DNA of 64,000 bases from Prochlorococcus sp. scB245a_519A13 (GTDB lineage: Bacteria > Cyanobacteriota > Cyanobacteriia > PCC-6307 > Cyanobiaceae). The DNA lies in assembly GCA_000634415.1 (NCBI GenBank), contig JFNH01000118.1, forward strand, positions 1-64,000. The letters are read 5' to 3'. The notes under the pieces were generated by a model. It made no database searches and was not told where the DNA came from. It saw only the letters and a list, made by a program, of their open reading frames with translations. Positions 3,586 to 29,945 of the stretch are shown here, piece after piece. A program made the translations under genes and the position numbers. Each line of letters starts with the position of its first letter. Position 1 is the first letter of the stretch.

Positions 3586-4698
3586 GTGAGATTTATTAAA
3601 GCATTAAGCCTAATCCCAATAGCTTTTGGTTCAGTTCTTTCTGTTTCTGCTAACGAATACAAGTTTGAGGAATTCAAATTTGATCAAGTAGAAAATAAGC
3701 AATATATGTATAAGCCAAAAGATAAATTGGATAAATACATAATTAAGGGGGCAACTTATTCAACTAAGTTTCTTCCATTAATGAATGATGGTGCAGAGGG
3801 TAGTGAATATACAAACCTTATGGCTAATGATTTTAAAAAATTATTAGTCGATGCTGGATTTGATTTAGCAAATGCAAATGCAAATGATTTGATACAAAAA
3901 ATCCCGTTTTTTGCTCAGACTTCTATAAACATATCGGGAGGAACAGACTCAGATACAATCTTCTCAATAAATAGTTTGATGAAGCTTGGGGAACTTGCAA
4001 AAGATGAAGAGGGAGATATCAAAACTCTTGCATTTTCTCAAGCTAGATTTGCTAATGCAACAAATTCAGACGGTTCAACAACAAACTTAGGTTTAGGAAT
4101 TAGACATCGTCCAAATGACATTTCAATGATAGGTGCCAATGCTTTTTGGGATTATAGAATGACAGATTATAGTGACGCCCATAGCAGGCTTGGATTAGGT
4201 GGAGAATATTTCTGGAAAGATTTTGAGTTTAGAAATAACTGGTACATGGCAATTACTGATGAAAAAGATATATCAATAAAGGGAGTTTCATATAAAGAAA
4301 GAGTTGTAGATGGATGGGATGTTGAATTGGGATACAGACTGCCTAATAATCCAGAGATAGCTTTTTTTGTAAGAGGTTTCAATTGGGACTATAAAAATAC
4401 TCAAGACAATTCAGGTTTAGAAGGGTCTGTTAGCTGGCAAGCCACCCCTCATGTAGGCCTAGAAGCATATGTCTCTAATGAGATTTCAGCCGCATCTACA
4501 ACCTTAAACACTTCTCTACCAGGAACAGATGAAACATTCTTTGGTTTAAGGATGAACATAACAGGAAATCCTGTGAAGTTTGAGGCAGCAAATTATAAGA
4601 AAAATATGATCACTCAAATGACACAACCGGTTAAACGTAAATATGATGTTCTATTAGAACGAAGTTCTGGAATTATTTTTCAGGTAAGAGGAGGATAA
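3586..4698 (+). CDS. inverse-autotransporter (intimin/invasin-type) beta-barrel protein
   Basis: GTG start; signal peptide of about 22 residues ending SVSA/NEY. Residues about 145-345 match the inverse-autotransporter barrel known from intimin and invasin: LGLGIRHRP, MIGANAFWDY, RLGLGGEYFWKDF, the YKERVVDGWDVELGYRLP segment, FFVRGFNWDY and the closing KRKYDVLLERS. In known members this barrel sits in the outer membrane and exports a C-terminal adhesin. Here only about 15 residues follow the last strand, so there is no passenger domain. About 100 residues before the barrel could act in the periplasm. The gene at 4742 encodes a second secreted protein 43 bases downstream, perhaps its partner. 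The barrel assignment is firm, the role is inferred. Confidence 0.85.
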   Translation: MRFIKALSLIPIAFGSVLSVSANEYKFEEFKFDQVENKQYMYKPKDKLDKYIIKGATYSTKFLPLMNDGAEGSEYTNLMANDFKKLLVDAGFDLANANANDLIQKIPFFAQTSINISGGTDSDTIFSINSLMKLGELAKDEEGDIKTLAFSQARFANATNSDGSTTNLGLGIRHRPNDISMIGANAFWDYRMTDYSDAHSRLGLGGEYFWKDFEFRNNWYMAITDEKDISIKGVSYKERVVDGWDVELGYRLPNNPEIAFFVRGFNWDYKNTQDNSGLEGSVSWQATPHVGLEAYVSNEISAASTTLNTSLPGTDETFFGLRMNITGNPVKFEAANYKKNMITQMTQPVKRKYDVLLERSSGIIFQVRGG

Positions 4699-5845: not shown

Positions 5846-5919
5846 CGGGGCGTGGCGCAGCTTGGTAGCGCGGGTGCTTTGGGAGCACTAGGTCGCAGGT
5901 TCGAATCCTGTCGCCCCGA
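5846..5919 (+). tRNA. tRNA-Pro (anticodon UGG)
   Basis: Complete 74-base cloverleaf. The acceptor stem pairs CGGGGCG with CGCCCCG, with discriminator A. The D arm is GCGCAGCTTGGTAGCGC, the anticodon stem GGTGC/GCACT encloses TTTGGGA (anticodon TGG), and the T arm is CGCAGGTTCGAATCCTG. CCA is not encoded. This is the functional copy; partial copies lie at 3266, 7910 and 12789, so the gene has served as a repeated insertion point. Confidence 0.97.
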
Positions 5920-5971
5920 TCAGTTATAGCAGTAAGTCTCAGCTAATACCTAATTCACGCAAAATATTACT

Positions 5972-5991
5972 TCACGCAAAACTCACGCAAA
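5972..5991 (+). repeat. 20-bp direct repeat, left copy (module B)
   Basis: TCACGCAAAACTCACGCAAA is identical to 7804-7823. Each copy lies just inside a tRNA-Pro 3' end, so together they bracket the small genes of module B. The unit itself is a doubled TCACGCAAAA; another loose copy precedes it near 5955. Confidence 0.8.
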
Positions 5992-6065
5992 AGTTATTTT
6001 CTCCAGAATAATTGGCATAACTTTAAAATCTAGTATTTGGTTTTGACCGACTTAGCGTAACTTTC

Positions 6066-6087
6066 AAGGGGTTTTCTGTCGCCCCTT
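6066..6087 (+). terminator. intrinsic terminator after tRNA-Pro
   Basis: AAGGGG and CCCCTT pair across a 10-base loop and are followed by Ts on the + strand. It could end the tRNA-Pro transcript about 150 bases after the tRNA. It also lies directly after the stop of the minus-strand gene at 6090. Confidence 0.55.
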
Positions 6088-6089
6088 TT

Positions 6090-6374
6090 TTAGTCTAATC
6101 CTTGAATATGTTTGTTATGGAAAGTATCCCAAAAACCTTCCTTATTAGTTATTAGTTTATCTGGATCAACGTATGGGATCTTATCTCTGCAATTATCAAT
6201 TAAACCAAATTCACTCCCGTATCTTTCACCACGTCCAATCCATTTTTTTTCTGCTGTTTTATAAGAATATCTGCCGTCAAGATATCTATGGCAGATATCA
6301 TCTTTTGTAGGGAAAAACCACCAAATTCCAATAAGTCCTAAAATTGCTCCAGTAACAGTTACAATCCCTTTCAT
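6090..6374 (-). CDS. hypothetical protein with N-terminal membrane anchor (94 aa)
   Basis: Starts MKGIVTVTGAILGLIGIWWF, one hydrophobic helix that is an anchor or uncleaved signal, followed by a polar domain with two cysteines (DDICHRYLDGRYSY, IDNCRDKIPY). The start at 6374 avoids a long overlap with the gene upstream, whose stop is 4 bases away. It is the last of four closely packed minus-strand genes in module B. Family not recognised. Confidence 0.65.
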   Translation of the reverse strand: MKGIVTVTGAILGLIGIWWFFPTKDDICHRYLDGRYSYKTAEKKWIGRGERYGSEFGLIDNCRDKIPYVDPDKLITNKEGFWDTFHNKHIQGLD

Positions 6375-6378
6375 TTCT

Positions 6379-6621
6379 TTAAAAAGGATATTTATAATCT
6401 GGAATAAAATTTTTGCAGTAAAAAACAATTCGTGCAGACTCGTCGGTATAAAACTGAATTCCCTCATAGTTATTTTTTGTTAAACCTAATCTTTTAAATG
6501 CTTCTTTAGGACTAATTTCAAAAAAAACTTTTGCACAAGTGTCTTTTACCTTAAAAAGGCTATTCGCGTTTACGGGAATAGCCATAGCTAACAAAAGCGG
6601 TGCAAGTAGTAAGCGTTTCAT
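6379..6621 (-). CDS. small secreted protein (80 aa)
   Basis: The signal peptide MKRLLLAPLLLAMAIPVNA is followed by a roughly 60-residue mature part with two cysteines (DTCAKVF, VFYCKNF), which suggests a periplasmic disulfide protein. Starts directly after the stop of the 48-residue gene at 6622 and is probably translated with it. Function unknown. Confidence 0.75.
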   Translation of the reverse strand: MKRLLLAPLLLAMAIPVNANSLFKVKDTCAKVFFEISPKEAFKRLGLTKNNYEGIQFYTDESARIVFYCKNFIPDYKYPF

Positions 6622-6768
6622 TTATCCCATCCATTCCCAAAATCTGAAATTAAAAAAATTTTTACTTGGTTTATTTTTTTTTCTATTTAATTTTGCCTGT
6701 TTTTGTTGTTTAGATTTTTCGGGATCTTTTTTGTAATTATCCACAAATTCTTTGAAATCATCCTTCAT
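6622..6768 (-). CDS. small basic hypothetical protein (48 aa)
   Basis: Its ATG overlaps the TGA of the upstream gene (ATGA at 6765-6768) and its stop abuts the next start, so it is tightly coupled in the module B operon. The sequence begins MKDDFKEFVDNYKKDPEK, is lysine/glutamine rich, and ends in an aromatic patch FNFRFWEWMG. No known family. Confidence 0.6.
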   Translation of the reverse strand: MKDDFKEFVDNYKKDPEKSKQQKQAKLNRKKNKPSKNFFNFRFWEWMG

Positions 6769-7361
6769 AATTTTTCTCTTTTAAAGTTGTAGTAATGCAT
6801 CGTGGTTCCGTTTGCAGCTAAATCTTGATTAACTACGTGAGAAATCATTTCCCAACCATCATCTCCTAATTTGTTTAAGATTTCGGGCAATGATGGGACT
6901 TCTTTAGAGGAGAAATTATCAGACCAGCCTCTAATTCTTTCTCCATCAATATCAAGTAAATTTATCTCTTGGGTTATACCCCTTCCTTTGTAATCTAATC
7001 TTAAATGTTTATAGTCCCATCGCTTAATACCTTTTTCCTTAAGCGTATTGAGGAAGGCAGCTTCCTCTGCTTTTTTCTTTTCTATTAAGGCTTCTCTTTC
7101 CGCCTGAGCTTGTGCTTCAAGTTCTTCTTTTGGTATTACTGGTTTTGGCTTTGCGGCTTCTTTTGCTTGTGCTAATTTTTCTGGATCTTTTAATTGCTCT
7201 ACTCTTTCCATAGATATTCTGCTAACTACTTTCCCATTTGAATTTTTTAATTCAAAATTATTCCCTCTTTGTCCAGATTTATTCTCATCAGCTATTTCTT
7301 TGCTTGAAATCTCTTTTCTAATTAATGCTGCTTCAACAGCAGCTTCAAAATTACTCAACAT
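6765..7361 (-). CDS. coiled-coil protein with DUF4177-like C-terminus (198 aa)
   Basis: Residues about 50-110 form a charged, alanine-rich coiled coil (EELEAQAQAEREALIEKKK). Residues about 113-198 (KRWDYKHLRLDY, LNKLGDDGWEMISHV, MHYYNFKRE) follow the DUF4177 pattern, in which a small beta sheet ends in a GWE motif and a final FKR strand. There is no signal peptide, so the protein is probably cytosolic. It heads the three genes downstream on the minus strand. Biochemical role unknown. Confidence 0.75.
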   Translation of the reverse strand: MLSNFEAAVEAALIRKEISSKEIADENKSGQRGNNFELKNSNGKVVSRISMERVEQLKDPEKLAQAKEAAKPKPVIPKEELEAQAQAEREALIEKKKAEEAAFLNTLKEKGIKRWDYKHLRLDYKGRGITQEINLLDIDGERIRGWSDNFSSKEVPSLPEILNKLGDDGWEMISHVVNQDLAANGTTMHYYNFKREKL

Positions 7362-7476
7362 TTTTATATTTAAATTTATTTATCTTTTAGCATTAAAAAA
7401 TTCAGAATATATGAATTATTAAATTCTTTATATTGAAATCTTTTAGAAGATGCAATAAATCAACTTTCAATCTCAT

Positions 7477-7509
7477 TTAATGTAGCGGTGCAAGAAGTAA
7501 GAGCTTCAT
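7477..7509 (-). pseudogene. truncated signal-peptide gene remnant
   Basis: The short frame MKLLLLAPLH then stop has the same start as the secreted-protein gene at 6379 (MKRLLLAPLL). Its ATG overlaps the TAA of the gene at 7509-7751 by one base, a coupling arrangement seen in intact gene pairs. It looks like the stump of a secreted-protein gene that has lost its body. Confidence 0.5.
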
Positions 7510-7751
7510 TAATATCTTAAATTACATTTCTTGGCATAAGTTTTAAGTTCTGATTTGAGACTATTTGAAGTTTCACCATATGCTTCAGGCCAGTTTGCAG
7601 CTTGTATTGCTAATGTCACCATAGTGCATCCATCCATACCTAATTTAAATTGTTGATCAGCATTATTTAATGCATCTTTAACCATACTATTTGCGTTTAC
7701 AGAAGAAGGTAAAGATAAAGCAGCTAAAAACAGAATTAAAAATTTTTTCAA
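7509..7751 (-). CDS. small secreted protein (80 aa)
   Basis: TTG start; signal peptide KKFLILFLAALSLPSSVNA with likely cleavage before NSM. The mature part is about 60 residues with two cysteines (DGCTMVTLA, AKKCNLRY). A promoter-like element lies 25-44 bases upstream. First gene of the minus-strand set in module B. No known family. Confidence 0.7.
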   Translation of the reverse strand: MKKFLILFLAALSLPSSVNANSMVKDALNNADQQFKLGMDGCTMVTLAIQAANWPEAYGETSNSLKSELKTYAKKCNLRY

Positions 7752-7775
7752 AACAAAAAGTAGCTAATTACCCTT

Positions 7776-7795
7776 TATTTTAGATCGATTGTCAA
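7776..7795 (-). promoter_or_regulatory. shared promoter-like motif, site 1
   Basis: On the minus strand this reads TTGACAATCGATCTAAAATA, ending 25 bases before the start of the secreted-protein gene at 7751. Nearly the same 20 bases stand before three other minus-strand island genes (sites at 15478, 17575 and 18629). TAAAAT fits a -10 box; the TTGACA is too close to be a normal -35, so it may bind a regulator. Confidence 0.5.
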
Positions 7796-7803
7796 ATTAA
7801 ATC

Positions 7804-7823
7804 TCACGCAAAACTCACGCAAA
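7804..7823 (+). repeat. 20-bp direct repeat, right copy (module B)
   Basis: Identical to 5972-5991. It lies between the module B genes and the tRNA-Pro 3' fragment at 7910. Confidence 0.8.
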
Positions 7824-7909
7824 TCAAGGTTTAATAGTCCGAATTAGGCTACACTTACTTCTCTAAAAGTACTGATAGCAACATAAGTCTCAGTTATAGC
7901 TTCATTTTT

Positions 7910-7960
7910 GCGGGTTCTTTGGGAGCACTAGGTCGCAGGTTCGAATCCTGTCGCCCCGAT
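7910..7960 (+). repeat. tRNA-Pro 3' fragment (attachment-site-like), between modules B and C
   Basis: Matches the tRNA-Pro gene from the anticodon stem to the 3' end with one mismatch (T at 7916), and identity continues into the flank (TCAGTTATAGCA). The 5' half is missing. Such a displaced tRNA 3' end is the usual scar of an element that inserted into a tRNA gene and supplied a new 3' end. No recombinase gene is visible in the adjacent modules. Confidence 0.9.
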
Positions 7961-8010
7961 CAGTTATAGCAATGGATTACAAATATTCGAGTTAGTCTTA
8001 TATTGAGAAA

Positions 8011-8030
8011 GGAGCGCTAGGGTTATGTAC
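8011..8030 (+). repeat. short repeat containing GGAGCGCTAG and TATGTAC
   Basis: GGAGCGCTAGGGTTATGTAC resembles 12653-12672 (GGAGCGCTAGATGTATGTAC) at the other end of module C. AGCGCT is a palindrome, and the unit resembles the GGGAGCACTAGG core of the tRNA fragment. Confidence 0.5.
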
Positions 8031-8064
8031 TTTGTATATACTTGTGCCTTACTTTTACAGGAAA

Positions 8065-9192
8065 TTATTTATCCCATAGATGAATTGTCAAATCTTTGTT
8101 ATGAGTCAATTCATTAAATTTATCAATTTCAAGATTAGTGTTGTACATAATCATTGGCAATTCCATTTCATGTAATGAGCCATGGGCGCGATAACCTTCA
8201 TCTAAGGTTTCATATTCTTCATCTGCTTCTCCAAACATAGTATTTTTATCACCTTCGACAACCAAATCACCAATATGATGAATACTAGTTTTATATTTAT
8301 CAGCAATATACTTACTATCATAAACTTCATCAACTCCCTCAAGAGATTTTATGATATCTCTAACAGGCTCTTTATCTTCAGGATCCTTTAGCCATATCCA
8401 AGAGCACCCAGTATAGTTTTTGTGATGTTTTATATAGTAATCTCGCTCTGGAGACAATGCGAATAACAAAGGTATACCTCTGTTTTCACAGACTTTGGCT
8501 AAATTCCAACATCTAGTTTTTTTGTTCATACTATGGTCAGCTGTTAGAAGAATGGCTGCATCTGGAGCACATTCAGTTATCTCTCCAAGTCTTGCATCCA
8601 TTTTTTGAAGATGTAACTGTGAGCCTATTTCCTCAGGAGCCCATCTATGCATCGGATAATCAGTTATGTGCACATAAATTAAGTCGATAGATTTATCCTT
8701 TTTTAATAAATAAATTGCTGCATGCCAAAGCCAATCATTAACTTCAGAAGAATAAATATGAGCAGGTTCACCAATAGCTTCAACTAAATCTTTCGGTGGA
8801 TTTTCTGCAGTTATTGCGATATCAGCAGAATCTCCAAAAAGCTCAGTTGATTTCTTTTTGGAGCTTAAAACTGCTACCTTTTTGTTACGCTTTTTTCCTT
8901 TAATAAAAACCGAATCAACCTTTATTAGGTTTTTGTCATTCATGTACTCAGGAGTACCACTTTCGCGATTAAAATAAGAATTTGCAATGATTCCATGATC
9001 TTTAGGCCATGAACCGGTTGCGATGCCTACATTATTTACGTTCGTGACACTTGGATAACATCCTGATACTTTTTTAAATAACCCTTCTTTAATTAATTTA
9101 TTCTTTATTACGGGTAAATTAGTTCCTTCAAGATATGTTAGACCAAAACCATCTAACATCCCAATGACACATCTTTGATTTTCAACTAGCAT
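8065..9192 (-). CDS. phosphonoacetate hydrolase-like enzyme (alkaline phosphatase superfamily)
   Basis: The fold is that of the nucleotide pyrophosphatase/phosphodiesterase branch of the alkaline phosphatase superfamily. Expected metal and catalytic positions are visible: Asp14 (GMLDGFG), the nucleophile Thr50 (YPSVTNVNN), Asp/His in HITDYPMH, Asp-His in LTADHSM, and a late His in RAHGSLHEME. The segments around TNVNNVGIATG and DHGIIANSYF resemble PhnA-type phosphonoacetate hydrolases, which split the C-P bond of phosphonoacetate to acetate and phosphate. It is first or last in a unit with phnE, phnC and phnD, supporting a phosphonate substrate. No signal peptide, so it acts in the cytosol. 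The exact substrate is inferred. Confidence 0.75.
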   Translation of the reverse strand: MLVENQRCVIGMLDGFGLTYLEGTNLPVIKNKLIKEGLFKKVSGCYPSVTNVNNVGIATGSWPKDHGIIANSYFNRESGTPEYMNDKNLIKVDSVFIKGKKRNKKVAVLSSKKKSTELFGDSADIAITAENPPKDLVEAIGEPAHIYSSEVNDWLWHAAIYLLKKDKSIDLIYVHITDYPMHRWAPEEIGSQLHLQKMDARLGEITECAPDAAILLTADHSMNKKTRCWNLAKVCENRGIPLLFALSPERDYYIKHHKNYTGCSWIWLKDPEDKEPVRDIIKSLEGVDEVYDSKYIADKYKTSIHHIGDLVVEGDKNTMFGEADEEYETLDEGYRAHGSLHEMELPMIMYNTNLEIDKFNELTHNKDLTIHLWDK

Positions 9193-9256
9193 TTAAATTC
9201 TATTTTTTTTAAATTATTTTCCTTAGGTTAAATATGATTTAAGTAGAAATTAAGCT

Positions 9257-10057
9257 CTAATTATTAATATATTTGTTCCGAATATTCACACTTAATTGTT
9301 CAACAATAATTACAAGGATAAAAATTAAAATTAATATTGTGGATGCTTGATCATAATTAAACATTTCCATTGCAACTTTTAATTCAATACCAATTCCTCC
9401 TGCTCCAACTAATCCTAAAACTACAGATGAACGTACTGCTTTTTCAAGACTAAATAATGAAGTATTAATAAATGAAGGTAAGACTTCAGGGAGTACTGCA
9501 CAAAAAATTATTGCTATTTTTGAAATACCTATTGCCTCCAATGCTTTTTGAGGTTTTTTTTCAATCTCTTCCATGGCTTCTGCAAAGAAACGCCCAGAGA
9601 ATCCAATAGTATCAACAATTATGGTGAGGGTCCCAGCTGAGGTACCAAGTCCAATAGTCGCAACAAAGAAAATTGCCCAGATAAGATCTGGAATCGTTCT
9701 GAAAAATGCAATTAAGCCTCTAGAAATTTTATACAATTTTGGAATTGGACTTAGTTCTTTAGCCGCAAATATTGCCAAAGAAAATCCTCCCAATATTCCT
9801 ACAAATGTCCCTACAAATGCTATCTGTAAAGTCTCAAGAATCGATTTCAAAAGAGGGAAAATCCTTGAAAAATTTGGAGGTAGCATTTCACTAAGAAGAC
9901 GAATCATATATGGCACACCTTTTAACAACTCAAGAGGTGATAAACCAACTTGCTTACTAGACCAAATGAAAAACAATAGAACTAAAAGGTATGAGAAATA
10001 AACTAAATTATTTGTTTTATCCCATCTTGGAGGTAAATCTCTATAATTATTTTTCAT
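9257..10057 (-). CDS. phnE: phosphonate ABC transporter, permease
   Basis: Inner-membrane channel subunit for phosphonate uptake. Several hydrophobic helices are seen (LVYFSYLLVLLFFIW near residues 18-32, LQIAFVGTFVGILGGFSLA near 75-93, and others to the C-terminus). The coupling loop EALEAIGISKIAIIF near 165-180 is the EAA contact to the ATPase. Length of 266 residues is normal. It starts 2 bases after the phnC stop, so the two are co-translated. Confidence 0.88.
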   Translation of the reverse strand: MKNNYRDLPPRWDKTNNLVYFSYLLVLLFFIWSSKQVGLSPLELLKGVPYMIRLLSEMLPPNFSRIFPLLKSILETLQIAFVGTFVGILGGFSLAIFAAKELSPIPKLYKISRGLIAFFRTIPDLIWAIFFVATIGLGTSAGTLTIIVDTIGFSGRFFAEAMEEIEKKPQKALEAIGISKIAIIFCAVLPEVLPSFINTSLFSLEKAVRSSVVLGLVGAGGIGIELKVAMEMFNYDQASTILILIFILVIIVEQLSVNIRNKYINN

Positions 10058-10059
10058 TT

Positions 10060-10839
10060 TTATGCAGCATAAAATTCATCAACATCAAGTTCATTAAGTT
10101 CTTTAGATTTAATATTTATTTTGATTACTCCATCTTTCAAACCAATTACTCTATTTGCATAATGTTCAGCATGCTTTAGGTCGTGAGTTGTAAAAAATAG
10201 CGTAATTCCTTGCTTTAAAGTGAGATCTTTTAGAAGGTTCATAACTTCAATTCCAACCTTTGGATCTAGACTTGCGACAGGTTCATCAGCGATCATTAAC
10301 TTGGGTTTTTGCATTAGAGCACGTGCTATTGCTACCCTTTGAGATTCCCCTCCAGAAAGTGTATTAACGTTATTCTTTGCAAAATTTTTTAATCCAACTT
10401 GATCTAAACAATTCAGAGCCCTAGATCTAATTTCAGAGGGAGCAAATGCCTGATACCATAATCTAGGATTTGGGTGGGAATTTAAAGATCCATGAATAAC
10501 ATTACTTAAAACGCTCAACCTTGGTACTAAATTATGAGTCTGCCAAATAAAAGCAATATCTCGTCTATAAAACTTTAGTAAATTATTATTTTTCATATTC
10601 AAGCGTATCTGATTAGTATAAATTTCTCCTTTTTCAATATTTGTTAAACCTAAAAGACATTTGATTAAAGTAGATTTTCCACTACCATTAGATCCAATTA
10701 GTGCAACTGATTCTCCATAACTTACATTTAAATTTATTTCTCTTAAAACTTTTTTATTTTTATAAGACTTACTTAAATTAGTTACTTTTAATATTTCATG
10801 AGAATCTCTTAGAATAGATGATTTTGTAAACTTTTCCAT
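10060..10839 (-). CDS. phnC: phosphonate ABC transporter, ATP-binding protein
   Basis: Cytosolic ATPase that powers phosphonate import. It has Walker A (GSNGSGKST, near residue 48), the signature LSGGESQRVAIARAL, Walker B LMIADEPVASLD and the switch histidine in FFTTHDLKHAE. About 15 extra residues precede the usual domain start (LKVTNLSKSYKNKK). Lies between phnD and phnE in the standard order D-C-E. Confidence 0.92.
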   Translation of the reverse strand: MEKFTKSSILRDSHEILKVTNLSKSYKNKKVLREINLNVSYGESVALIGSNGSGKSTLIKCLLGLTNIEKGEIYTNQIRLNMKNNNLLKFYRRDIAFIWQTHNLVPRLSVLSNVIHGSLNSHPNPRLWYQAFAPSEIRSRALNCLDQVGLKNFAKNNVNTLSGGESQRVAIARALMQKPKLMIADEPVASLDPKVGIEVMNLLKDLTLKQGITLFFTTHDLKHAEHYANRVIGLKDGVIKINIKSKELNELDVDEFYAA

Positions 10840-10877
10840 GAGATTCTCTTGAAAAAAATAATAAAGAAATTTCTAAT

Positions 10878-11765
10878 CTACAAAAATTTATTAAATTTAT
10901 TTACTCCAATGGTTTTATACATTGATCGCACGTAATCATAATCGCTATCTTTTGTATTAGGTAAAAATTGCATTCCAGTAAATTTCTTATTATCTTCTCC
11001 AAGAAGTATTGCACTTATCATTTCATCAGAATTCTTAGACAGAGCACTTTTTATTTTATTCACGGATTTTTTATCTAAACCTTTTCTATAAAGCAAAATA
11101 TCATTAGGCAAATCTCGACTTCTAGCAATAACTTTAAATGCACCTGGTTGATACTGTTTATCAATTGATCTTAATTTCAAAAACTTATCATTGGTTGTAG
11201 CAAATGCAGCGACATCACCTCTTTTGAGTGCTTCCCAACCAACTTTAACGCTTGTATGAAAAGGCTTTATATCTCTTAAAGGATTTAGCCCTGCATCTTT
11301 CATAACTTGAAAAGGAGCCAAGTGCTTTGAGGTGGAGCCAACTGATCCCATTGCAACTTTTTTATTCTTAAGATCTTTTACATCTTGTATTGGACCATCA
11401 GCCATTACGACAATAGAATTAAAATAATCTGGTCTTGAAAACCCTACGAGAGTTTGGGCATCTGTCTTATTTTTAAAAATTACGTATTCTGCAGGGCCTG
11501 TTAAAACTAAATCAATCTTTTTATTTCTCATAGCTTCAACTGCAGCTGTTCTATTCGGAACAGGGTAAAACTCAATATTTAATCCAGTTTTTTCAATCAA
11601 TTTATCTCTGAAAGGACCAAACTCAGTTTGCAATTGTTCCATTCCTTCTAGGTCAGTAATTGCGAAATTAATAATTTCTTGTGCAATTGCAGAGACTGAC
11701 ATTGCTGAAGACGCTAGAATCCCTATAGCAAGGACTTTTGTTTTAGAAAAAAAACTCTTTAACAT
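10878..11765 (-). CDS. phnD: phosphonate-binding periplasmic protein
   Basis: Captures phosphonate (or phosphite) in the periplasm and hands it to PhnE/PhnC. The signal peptide ends near AIA/QEI (residue about 28). The family core follows: IEFYPVPNRTAAVEAMRNKK, LTGPAEYVIF, KKVAMGSVGSTSKHLAPF and GDVAAFATTN. The SVGSTSKH stretch forms the phosphonate-oxygen site in family structures. It is the first gene after the divergent promoter region shared with the PhnZ-like gene. PhnD proteins differ in ligand preference (phosphite, methylphosphonate, 2-aminoethylphosphonate), and sequence inspection does not settle which. Confidence 0.88.
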   Translation of the reverse strand: MLKSFFSKTKVLAIGILASSAMSVSAIAQEIINFAITDLEGMEQLQTEFGPFRDKLIEKTGLNIEFYPVPNRTAAVEAMRNKKIDLVLTGPAEYVIFKNKTDAQTLVGFSRPDYFNSIVVMADGPIQDVKDLKNKKVAMGSVGSTSKHLAPFQVMKDAGLNPLRDIKPFHTSVKVGWEALKRGDVAAFATTNDKFLKLRSIDKQYQPGAFKVIARSRDLPNDILLYRKGLDKKSVNKIKSALSKNSDEMISAILLGEDNKKFTGMQFLPNTKDSDYDYVRSMYKTIGVNKFNKFL

Positions 11766-11895
11766 TTTTTGAGTAGTTGATACCCAAAGAATAAAGAATA
11801 TTCATCTTTTAAAGTTATGTTTTTTTTAGAGGGAATTTAAAAAAAGTTTAAGTTCAGATTAATTTTTAAAAATACAAAAACTTTTTTTTTCATTT

Positions 11896-11914
11896 CTTAA
11901 TTACTTCTTAATTC
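11896..11914 (+). promoter_or_regulatory. Pho-box-like tandem repeat
   Basis: CTTAATTA CTT CTTAATTC: two 8-base units spaced by 3 bases match the cyanobacterial PhoB-site pattern (Py)TTAA(Py)(Py)(T/A) with 11-base period. The second unit misses only the last position. It lies in the 186-base gap between the divergent phnD and PhnZ-like genes, ending 37 bases before the latter, a fitting place for control by phosphate starvation. Confidence 0.5.
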
Positions 11915-11951
11915 AAATCAATTAATATCACTTTGTTTTTAATGAAATTAA

Positions 11952-12548
11952 GTGAAATACAAAACTATAAAAAATTTCAAAAACAAATTACAAGATTCTG
12001 ATAACGATGAATTTGCTGATTTATTATTTGATTTTATTAAGGAGGAAGGAAAAACTGCTTATGATGAATCTGTCTCTCAATTACAACATGCTCTCCAAAC
12101 AGCATCACTCGCTCGCACTGAAGATGGCAGAAGACATATAGTAATTGCTTCTTTATTGCATGATATAGGTCATCTTTTTATTGAAGAGAATGACGCAAAA
12201 AAAATAAAAGATCTTAACCATGAAATTATTGCTTCAAATTTTTTAAAAGATTTTTTCTCTGAAAAAATCACGGAAAGTATCCGCTTACACGTTGTCGCAA
12301 AAAGATATTTATGCTCAATCGATAATTCTTATTATGAGAGATTAGCTAAATCATCTAAAAAAAGCTTTGTGGTTCAAGGTGGAGCTTTAGAAAAAAAAGA
12401 GATTATTGAACTGGAAAATAATATCTACTTTAAAGACGCAATTCAATTAAGGAAATGGGACGATAGAGCCAAGGTTTCTCTAAAAGAAGTTGAAGAATTA
12501 GATACTTATAAAGAAATGATTGTTGCCGAAAGATTTGCTAATTATTAA
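11952..12548 (+). CDS. phnZ: PhnZ-like HD-domain di-iron oxygenase
   Basis: PhnZ cleaves alpha-hydroxyphosphonates with O2 at a mixed-valence di-iron site, releasing phosphate. Metal ligands of an HD oxygenase line up: His46 (QLQHALQ), His70-Asp71 (LLHDIGH), His74, His90 (DLNHEII), His113 (RLHVVAKRY) and a late Asp in KWDDRAK. The diagnostic stretch HVVAKRYL followed by SYYERLAKSS and VQGGAL closely follows PhnZ. Tyr37 and Glu39 lie where PhnZ has its substrate-gating Tyr and Glu, though the Tyr is one residue displaced. GTG start. It is divergent from phnD. Its usual partner PhnY, which makes the hydroxyphosphonate, is not in the window. Confidence 0.82.
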   Translation: MKYKTIKNFKNKLQDSDNDEFADLLFDFIKEEGKTAYDESVSQLQHALQTASLARTEDGRRHIVIASLLHDIGHLFIEENDAKKIKDLNHEIIASNFLKDFFSEKITESIRLHVVAKRYLCSIDNSYYERLAKSSKKSFVVQGGALEKKEIIELENNIYFKDAIQLRKWDDRAKVSLKEVEELDTYKEMIVAERFANY

Positions 12549-12622
12549 AAATATTGTTAATTGCACATTTTATAGATCGAATTTTCCAAAAAAACTGTCA
12601 AACCTAAGACCTAATTAACAGA

Positions 12623-12672
12623 GAGCACTATGTCGTAGAGGGGAGCGCTAAGGGGAGCGCTAGATGTATGTA
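12623..12672 (+). repeat. degenerate tRNA fragment and GGGGAGCGCTA repeats
   Basis: GAGCACTATGTCGTAG (12623-12638) differs at two of 16 bases from the tRNA-Pro stretch GAGCACTAGGTCGCAG. It is followed by AGGGGAGCGCTA twice in tandem, then GATGTATGTAC, which resembles the repeat at 8011. It looks like an older, decayed insertion scar before the clean tRNA fragment at 12789. Confidence 0.5.
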
Positions 12673-12788
12673 CAAACTAAATATAAGTACATAAATAGTT
12701 CAATATGCTGTCTCAAATCAGTTCCACTTACCTAGATATAATATAGTTATAGCTTCATTTTATTGGATATTCTCAAATGATCAAAGGA

Positions 12789-12834
12789 GTGCTTTGGGAG
12801 CACTAGGTCGCAGGTTCGAATCCTGTCGCCCCGA
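12789..12834 (+). repeat. tRNA-Pro 3' fragment (attachment-site-like), right end of module C
   Basis: Forty-six bases match the tRNA-Pro gene exactly, from GTGCTTTGGGAGCAC in the anticodon arm to the acceptor end CGCCCCGA. About 30-45 bases upstream, AGTTATAGCTTCATTTT repeats a sequence that precedes the fragment at 7910. It closes the phosphonate module. Confidence 0.9.
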
Positions 12835-13009
12835 CTCTTAAAAACCAAGTCATACTAGCGAGTTACCCAGACTCGTTTTTTAATGGGAAATTGACATCAC
12901 TCTCGTTATGTAAATTTGACGTAAATTTGAGATTTACTTAAAATTTCAGTTATCCAAAATTTATTTTTTGAAAGCCGATCTACAATAAGGTCAATTATCT
13001 ACTTTTTTA

Positions 13010-24873: not shown

Positions 24874-25062
24874 GGTCTTTTGCAGTTAATGAGAATCCCG
24901 TTCCCTACTCCCATTTCATGCGTCCAGAGATATAAACTTGGATGAACGTAAATGAACAATAACATCTTAAAAAAAATTCTGCGAGAGTAATTTTTACTAA
25001 ATTTTTCTCAAAAAAATAAATATTGAATAAATAGTATAAATAAGGTTCTAATATTTCCTAAA

Positions 25063-29540: not shown

Positions 29541-29945
29541 AAATATATTAAAATAATAATGTATAAAATTGAATTAATTTACTGCGATATAGTGCAAAAA
29601 TAGGGGGGGTAGGCACAAAGCTTTAAGCTATTAAATTTCTTATATGTTTATTGAGAATTTTGAGCAAAATAAAAAAAATTTAATCAAAAAAACAAGTATT
29701 ACCAATGACTTCTATTAAAGGCTAAATATTATGAAAATTTCCTTTTGAAATTTTTCAGAGGCAAAAAGTTTTTTCAAGATAATAAATATACTGCAGAACC
29801 TTTTTTTAATGAAGTATTAAATTTTAACTTCTATTTAATCTCAAACGTGTCGGCAAAAACCATCCCTAATAGAATCTATATAAAATACATTTAGATGTTT
29901 AATTTAAAGAAATTAGAACGCCTACAAGAATAGATAACAAATTTT
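29541..29945. other. 405-bp gap without a gene
   Basis: AT-rich DNA with no convincing frame on either strand. It contains a run of seven Gs (ATAGGGGGGGTAGG near 29601), unusual in this sequence. Probably contains the selO promoter. Confidence 0.4.

Follow-up and report, generated by a model that had tools for sequence, protein, structure and literature searches.

The present analysis concerns a phosphonate gene cassette in Prochlorococcus sp. scB245a_519A13, carried by a stretch of 64,000 nucleotides (contig JFNH01000118.1; our C118:1-64000) that is called the window below and belongs to an assembly (G000) with 222 contigs, a total length of 1.15 Mb, and a completeness of 67%. The open reading frame (ORF) list and family searches revealed five intact genes, with phnZ on the plus strand, divergent from phnD-phnC-phnE-hydrolase on the minus strand. 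An earlier note, made from the letters alone, had recognised PhnD, PhnC, PhnE, a PhnZ-like oxygenase, and an alkaline phosphatase-superfamily hydrolase here; all five ORFs lie where it had placed them, and the family searches concur. The cyanobacterial RNAs IsrR, Yfr13, and Yfr19 were found in the window by Rfam. The cassette comprises the following features:

8065..9192, minus strand: PhnA-family (alkaline phosphatase superfamily) carbon-phosphorus (C-P) hydrolase, 375 amino acids (PF01663, TIGR02335, phmmer to 3szy/1ei6, kept residues)
9257..10057, minus strand: PhnE permease, 266 amino acids (TIGR01097, 268.7 bits, over the cut-off)
10060..10839, minus strand: PhnC ATPase, 259 amino acids (TIGR02315, 253 bits, under the cut-off of 266.1)
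10878..11765, minus strand: PhnD substrate-binding protein, 295 amino acids (PF12974 over the cut-off; TIGR03431, 93.6 bits, cut-off 261.1)
11766..11951, no strand assigned: divergent promoter region in the phnD-phnZ gap, with two weak Pho-box-like triple repeats in opposite directions (lax score)
11952..12548, plus strand: PhnZ, HD-domain oxygenase of predicted hydroxymethylphosphonate (HMP) type, 198 amino acids (NF052439 versus TmpB scores; identity)

Equivalog cut-offs were exceeded by PhnE and missed by the hydrolase, PhnZ, PhnD, and PhnC.

The hydrolase matched Phosphodiest (PF01663) over the cut-off, and the phmmer search placed it next to the PhnA structures (5e-31 to 2e-30; 3szy and 1ei6 at 5e-31 to 7e-31), with the ENPPs far behind at 1e-5 or worse. 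The alignment showed that the Thr nucleophile and two-metal ligands of PhnA (D14, T50, D178, H182, D219, H220, and H337) as well as two lysines (K112 and K114) are present. These positions are kept in 23 of the 24 aligned rows, the exception being the most distant one, L126, which is without K114 and H337. The roles of single residues are partly assumed here, and we take K112 and K114 to be the lysines that act on the aci-carboxylate. In PhnA, two lysines stabilise the aci-carboxylate leaving group, according to the accessible text of a review (PMC10574752). In the tree, the window sequence, L055, L056, and L112 form a clade with support of 100/100. These data suggest that the hydrolase represents an uncharacterised PhnA-like clade of its own, for which phosphonoacetate hydrolysis is predicted.

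Among the 266 genomes of the genus searched, with at most two candidates per genome scored, the cassette was found in three, namely the window's assembly, scB243_498I20 (G197), and AG-915-K06 (G198). Its DNA is 97-99% identical in the three (99% in scB243_498I20, also the best named match of the hydrolase), with different flanks. In two further genomes, G087 and G099, the match is confined to the final 70 codons of the hydrolase; the rest of the 197 relatives searched gave none, the own genome aside. A contig scan with the hydrolase confirmed three loci, a single-protein query of this kind reaching close relatives only. No relative was confirmed in IMG/VR (two scans, 27 and 55 candidate stretches), and no match was found among 50,697 phage records.

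Outside the genus, the nearest full-length relatives of the hydrolase were found in two Verrucomicrobia (54-56% identity). In this phylum, to which L056 belongs, 63 of 387 genomes match at E 0.001, only two of them at 55-56%, both in one family of which 11 genomes were searched. The two share the order phnD-phnC-phnE-hydrolase, followed by a methyltransferase gene (57-60% identity for PhnD, 48-50% for PhnC, and 58-60% for PhnE), and have no PhnZ in the locus; none was found elsewhere in G199, and G385 was not searched for it. Since these two Verrucomicrobia have the same gene order without PhnZ beside it, the core seems to form a unit that imports and cleaves on its own. These observations also bear on the idea that the hydrolase acts as a mono- or diesterase of phosphonates, similar to nucleotide pyrophosphatases, which frees HMP from an ester so that it and PhnZ act in sequence. 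The shared superfamily (PF01663) is consistent with such a role, as is the discussion of methylphosphonate (MPn) and hydroxymethylphosphonate (HMPn) polysaccharide esters as a marine pool in the available part of the source (PMC6581173), but the retention of K112 and K114, the much closer match to PhnA than to ENPPs, and the Verrucomicrobia units without PhnZ render it quite improbable.

Concerning the transporter, alignments identified R72, Y114, S144-T145-S146, H170, and D222 in PhnD, with Thr at the position of E. coli E177. As far as the source could be consulted (PMC5700983), the pocket of Te_PtxB consists of Y55, Y100, S130-S132, and H160 with the capping Y208, and that of E. coli PhnD includes D205, T14, and E177 as a cap. 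Thus, Asp D222 replaces the phosphite-capping Tyr, Thr replaces the Glu that contacts aminoethylphosphonate (AEP), and Arg72, common to all four clade members aligned, occupies the position of a ligand-contact Tyr. These residues would argue against a binder of phosphite, methylphosphonate, or AEP and would fit an extra negative charge on the ligand.

The central observation of the earlier note, that PhnZ and a PhnA-family hydrolase lie together without PhnY, PhnW, or PhnX beside them, holds in all three carriers. A tblastn search of the 64 kb at E 1e-4 (Prochlorococcus PhnY query) detected no PhnY, PhnX-like HAD, or HpnW-type FAD oxidase; the PhnX profile was not run there. PhnW over the cut-off was found in none of the three Prochlorococcus carriers, the PhnW-family matches of the window's assembly lying on other contigs and below the cut-off. 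A phosphonoacetaldehyde dehydrogenase over the cut-off was found in none of five genomes, the three carriers among them, so a PhnWAY-type route was not seen in G000, with its 67% completeness, G197, or G198. Of the two Verrucomicrobia, G199 has PhnW over the cut-off on another contig and G385 has none. By comparison, 122 plasmid records match the hydrolase, and among the seven examined, PhnW and the dehydrogenase share the locus with PhnA in three of three annotated bacterial loci, two further bacterial ones being unannotated. In the more distant Verrucomicrobia homologues, an HpnW-type FAD oxidase adjoins the hydrolase in 6 of 12 loci from 11 genomes (blastp).

Because PhnW and the dehydrogenase were not found over the cut-off in the carriers, it appears likelier that the substrate of the hydrolase is taken up than that the cell makes it, within the limits of partly incomplete genomes. 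Direct import of the substrates, suggested in the earlier note, is the best reading, and a PhnA with its own putative transporters has a precedent in the P. fluorescens 23F phnA cluster, which has three such genes according to the portion of the review at hand (PMC10574752).

The absence of PhnX stands for the surroundings of the cassette and fails for the organism. Contig C205 of the window's assembly encodes PhnS2, PhnT2, PhnU2, and HpnW over their cut-offs, a TmpB-like PhnZ, and a PhnX-like HAD below its cut-off (151.9 of 218.9), and we rejected the statement that the organism has no PhnX-like gene. In AG-915-K06, the HpnW/PhnX-like/PhnS2T2U2 set lies on the same contig as the cassette.

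The PhnZ of the cassette is predicted to be of the HMP type. It scored 184.0 bits with the HMP dioxygenase model NF052439 (equivalog cut-off of 300 not reached) and a lower 128.1 bits with the TmpB model, and the order is reversed for the other PhnZ of this assembly, encoded on contig C205 (129.3 with the HMP model and 176.5 with TmpB). The score with TIGR03276 was 187.1 bits (cut-off 214.6). At the protein level, it is 83-85% identical to the PhnZ of seven ptxABDC-phnYZ-type loci, and its DNA is 88% identical to ptx-type PhnZ, in a match that barely exceeds the ORF (window 11946-12577). Alignment to 6npa, 4mlm, and six other homologues (loci L004, L006, L009, and L010 omitted) revealed that the HD metal ligands and the residues we presume to be the substrate Lys and Arg are kept.

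PhnY lies directly upstream in 17 of 17 other loci of this PhnZ type (L138-L154), and it is also adjacent in the eighteenth listed copy (G612:C45, L111); beside the PhnZ of the three cassette loci (L135-L137) it is found in none, which indicates that the cassette PhnZ stands without its usual PhnY partner. This raises the alternative that the cassette PhnZ is a surplus copy supplied in trans by PhnY, the carriers normally having a ptxABDC-phnYZ cluster that was missed in an incomplete assembly and the cassette adding only the hydrolase route. The genome scB243_498I20, with its nearly identical cassette, agrees with it, as one of its two PhyH matches (the PhnY family) is the phnY of a ptxABDC-phnYZ cluster with a second intact PhnZ, on a contig other than that of the cassette, and the incompleteness of the window's assembly leaves room for such a cluster. 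However, profile searches found no PhyH in the window's assembly, and none turned up in AG-915-K06 (1.4 Mb, completeness not stated), where the only two PhnZ copies seen share a contig. We consider this alternative, which is compatible with phosphonoacetate as the substrate of the hydrolase, rather unlikely. PhnY was thus not found in two carriers and is present in the third, so that the refuter named in the earlier note, a phnY elsewhere with matching regulation, came partly true. The premise of that note that PhnZ needs PhnY is weakened, since HMP uptake would bypass PhnY and MIT9301 grows on HMPn and MPn, as stated in the text available to us (PMC6581173), although MIT9301 has PhnY too. As a separate observation, scB243_498I20 contains an aminoethylphosphonate-type PhnZ broken by a stop (L111:1678-2070), with the neighbouring HpnW frame open.

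The hydrolase and PhnZ are under purifying selection. Compared with L055, the nonsynonymous and synonymous divergences (dN and dS) were 0.032 and 0.236 for the hydrolase and 0.004 and 0.112 for PhnZ, giving dN/dS well below 1. All five frames are open in the three carriers, except that the contig of L055 ends inside phnZ. Although the partial matches in G087 and G099 could be taken for decay, these data make a decaying relic without function a very improbable account of the cassette. In the same comparison (L055:1-4478), phnC, phnD, and phnE differ at only 3, 11, and 5 bases, with a dS of about 0.02, and as the silent divergence of the hydrolase and PhnZ far exceeds this value (0.24 and 0.11), recombination within the cassette is suggested.

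With regard to regulation, the phnD-phnZ gap contains two Pho-box-like sites, each scoring 21 of 24 by a lax triple-repeat score that was chosen after viewing the region. Of 1000 dinucleotide shuffles, 2 had at least two such sites, and the upstream regions of ptxA, phnY, and phnS2, scanned alongside, reached at most 20 of 24. The motif used for scoring is the one we take to be the Pho box. A strict two-repeat Pho box is missing from the gap, the single match in the window being at 29823, and the strict pattern occurs in 32 of 177 loci, L054, L055, and L135-L137 not among them. Phosphate control of both promoters is possible on this weak evidence.

The cassette fills a module between two tRNA-Pro repeats, which the earlier note had not noticed. 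The features of this region are as follows:

5846..5919, plus strand: tRNA-Pro (UGG), presumed integration site (ARAGORN, Rfam)
5932..7909, no strand assigned: second, neighbouring module between tRNA-Pro repeats, with two ORFs (repeats, ORF list)
7910..7971, plus strand: left border of the cassette module, directly repeating the 3' end of tRNA-Pro together with the next 12 nt (62 nt, 98% identical to 5870-5931)
7972..8056, no strand assigned: conserved module end A, found again in further genomes of Prochlorococcus, 12 nt past the tRNA repeat
12549..12784, no strand assigned: conserved module end B, recurring in other Prochlorococcus genomes next to the tRNA repeat
12785..12846, plus strand: right border, directly repeating the 3' end of tRNA-Pro with 46 nt exact (repeat; synteny break with G087)

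The window is collinear with G087 down to 12789 and differs beyond. Thirteen regions were fetched for their matches to the module ends, and ten of them (L165-L172, L175, and L176) have ends A and B in a single orientation, flanked on either side by a tRNA-Pro repeat and enclosing other cargo. The match to end A is short in L169, L175, and L176, and L173, L174, and L177 show only parts. Between its repeats, the L176 module of about 9.6 kb has a primase-polymerase gene and two matches to integrases (8e-6 and 3e-29). In scB243_498I20 (L054), a pair of tRNA-Gly repeats of 54 nt (93% identical) bounds a 9.3-kb element that contains the cassette and, next to the tRNA, an integrase-like gene; end B is cut to 92 nt there. 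No module end was found in L055, one side of which is cut by the contig end. Tycheposons are cargo-carrying elements that have a tyrosine recombinase and are located at one of seven tRNAs, according to the citing source as far as accessible (PMC10872708). From the tRNA repeats, the different sites, and the integrase in one carrier, we infer that the cassette looks mobile and would spread as the cargo of tycheposon-like elements that integrate at tRNAs.

Several further observations were made around these modules. The ORFs of the neighbouring module at 6090-6467 and 6765-7361 gave no Pfam or PHROGs match, with Sp36 below the cut-off in the latter. The tRNA-Pro repeats (window 5846-12846; L165-L176) mark off numerous small cargo modules whose ends are conserved; among the ORFs inside, several begin with MKRLL-like stretches that look like signal peptides and have no function assigned. 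The L054 element (L054:601-10001) has a tRNA-Pro repeat inside, as if a tRNA-Pro module had been captured. Just before the tRNA-Pro, an inverse-autotransporter beta-domain protein is encoded at window 3586-4698, which seemed unexpected in Prochlorococcus, and Rfam located a Glutamine-II riboswitch at window 24889-24951 on the minus strand.

The reading that we favour, with a confidence slightly above even, is that of a mobile cassette for phosphorus scavenging, whose two C-P-cleaving enzymes, of predicted chemistry, would act independently. In its core unit, PhnD-PhnC-PhnE would import a small carboxylated phosphonate, with phosphonoacetate as the most likely candidate, and the hydrolase of the PhnA family would split phosphonoacetate to phosphate and acetate by a Thr/two-zinc mechanism that needs neither PhnW nor the dehydrogenase; this proposal draws on the gene order, the residues, and the Verrucomicrobia counterparts. 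In the added unit, the divergent HMP-type PhnZ would oxidise HMP to formate and phosphate, with HMP being imported by the transporter of the cassette or another phosphonate transporter, or made by the PhnY of a separate ptxABDC-phnYZ cluster where a cell has one. Both promoters may respond to phosphate, and the cassette would travel as cargo of tRNA-integrating, tycheposon-like elements.

A number of findings weigh against this reading. To our knowledge, phosphonoacetate has been little measured in seawater. The hydrolase scored 145.3 bits with the PhnA equivalog TIGR02335, far from its cut-off of 407.55 (its relative L056 scored 166.5 bits), and the FS(S/A)E loop of bacterial PhnA is missing in the window clade. 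Owing to this low score and the missing canonical loop, 'phosphonoacetate hydrolase' stays a prediction. At position 250, the clade carries Arg (R250), in contrast to Thr in 19 of the 20 other rows and Lys in L126. The pocket claims, including that for R72 in PhnD, rest on sequence alignment. The AlphaFold models of the hydrolase were poor (mean pLDDT of 41.4 from one sequence and 51.0 from three) and could not be used. The best solved relative of PhnZ is TmpB (6npa, 9e-24), ahead of PhnZ itself (4mlm, 5e-22), and the HMP-type PhnZ of Gimesia takes both HMP and (R)-1-hydroxy-2-aminoethylphosphonate in the consulted part of the review (PMC10574752), so HMP is not certain as the substrate. As for mobility, Pfam and PHROGs searches found no integrase among the proteins of the two modules of the window, and the integrase of L054 matched a PHROG at 3e-14 with a Pfam score of 22.7, under the cut-off of 27.1. 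The G+C content of the cassette (31%) is similar to that of the window (32%); therefore, composition shows no transfer.

Because of the lost loop and R250, the substrate of the hydrolase may differ from that of PhnA, and it is conceivable, if doubtful, that the enzyme cuts a larger carboxylated phosphonate instead of phosphonoacetate. The short loop, the AENPP motif, and Cys228 are also shared with haloarchaeal plasmid sequences, in both examined loci of which the gene lies near a phosphoenolpyruvate (PEP)-mutase-family protein, an iron alcohol dehydrogenase, and a thiamine pyrophosphate (TPP) enzyme. However, the window clade joins these two sequences with a support of only 88/67 and flagged long branches, the tree program flags the unusual letter make-up of two Prochlorococcus rows, and the lysines and catalytic residues are as in PhnA. 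In its own right, the gene set of these haloarchaeal loci (L067 and L068, two of the five haloarchaeal records listed), which also includes MmgE/PrpD, may represent an unknown phosphonate pathway. A bolder version, which we rate as less likely than not, is a new branch of C-P hydrolases with a dedicated importer that would cut a carboxylated phosphonate other than phosphonoacetate without a known catabolic route, transferred between Verrucomicrobia and Prochlorococcus and joined with PhnZ into a mobile two-substrate phosphorus cassette.

If the two-enzyme reading with phosphonoacetate and HMP is true, Prochlorococcus would have a second kind of phosphonate route in the hydrolytic C-P enzyme of a transferable cassette, phosphonoacetate (or a relative) and free HMP would be real phosphorus sources in the phosphate-poor surface ocean, and the cassette would provide a testable case of nutrient cargo at different tRNA sites. 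In the literature covered, as far as its text was accessible, ptxABDC-phnYZ is given as the basis of phosphonate breakdown in Prochlorococcus, and no description of a PhnA-family gene in this genus was found, supplements and most subscription papers lying outside the coverage. Co-occurrence as such is already known, since phnZ is reported with phnA or phnX at 30-50% in the part available (PMC9381506).

In comparison with known systems, the cassette is a real variant of known phosphonate catabolism that appears to be mobile and brings in a PhnA-like clade not yet characterised. Its hydrolase is similar to known PhnA (TIGR02335; 3szy, 1ei6) in sequence family, catalytic Thr, metal ligands, and K-x-K, and shares about 27-30% identity with the PhnA of the bacterial plasmid records listed, whereas it differs in its low TIGR02335 score, the missing loop, the change from Thr to R250, and the linkage to PhnDCE, although putative transporter genes are also linked in the P. 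fluorescens 23F cluster mentioned above. The ptxABDC-phnYZ methylphosphonate cluster, as in MIT9301, likewise has this PhnZ type beside a phosphonate-type ABC transporter, but the cassette is without phnY and ptxD, has a different PhnDCE (24-37% identity), and adds the hydrolase. The aminoethylphosphonate-type HpnW/PhnX-like/PhnS2T2U2 cassette (C205, L034) occurs in the same assembly and also has PhnZ next to a phosphonate transporter; it differs in a PhnZ that is TmpB-like by score, in the FAD oxidase and PhnX-like HAD, and in another transporter class. Finally, tycheposons resemble the present elements in the tRNA 3'-end repeats (window and L054), the integrase-like gene beside the tRNA (L054), and the nutrient cargo, whereas the window has only cargo modules in which an integrase was not found.

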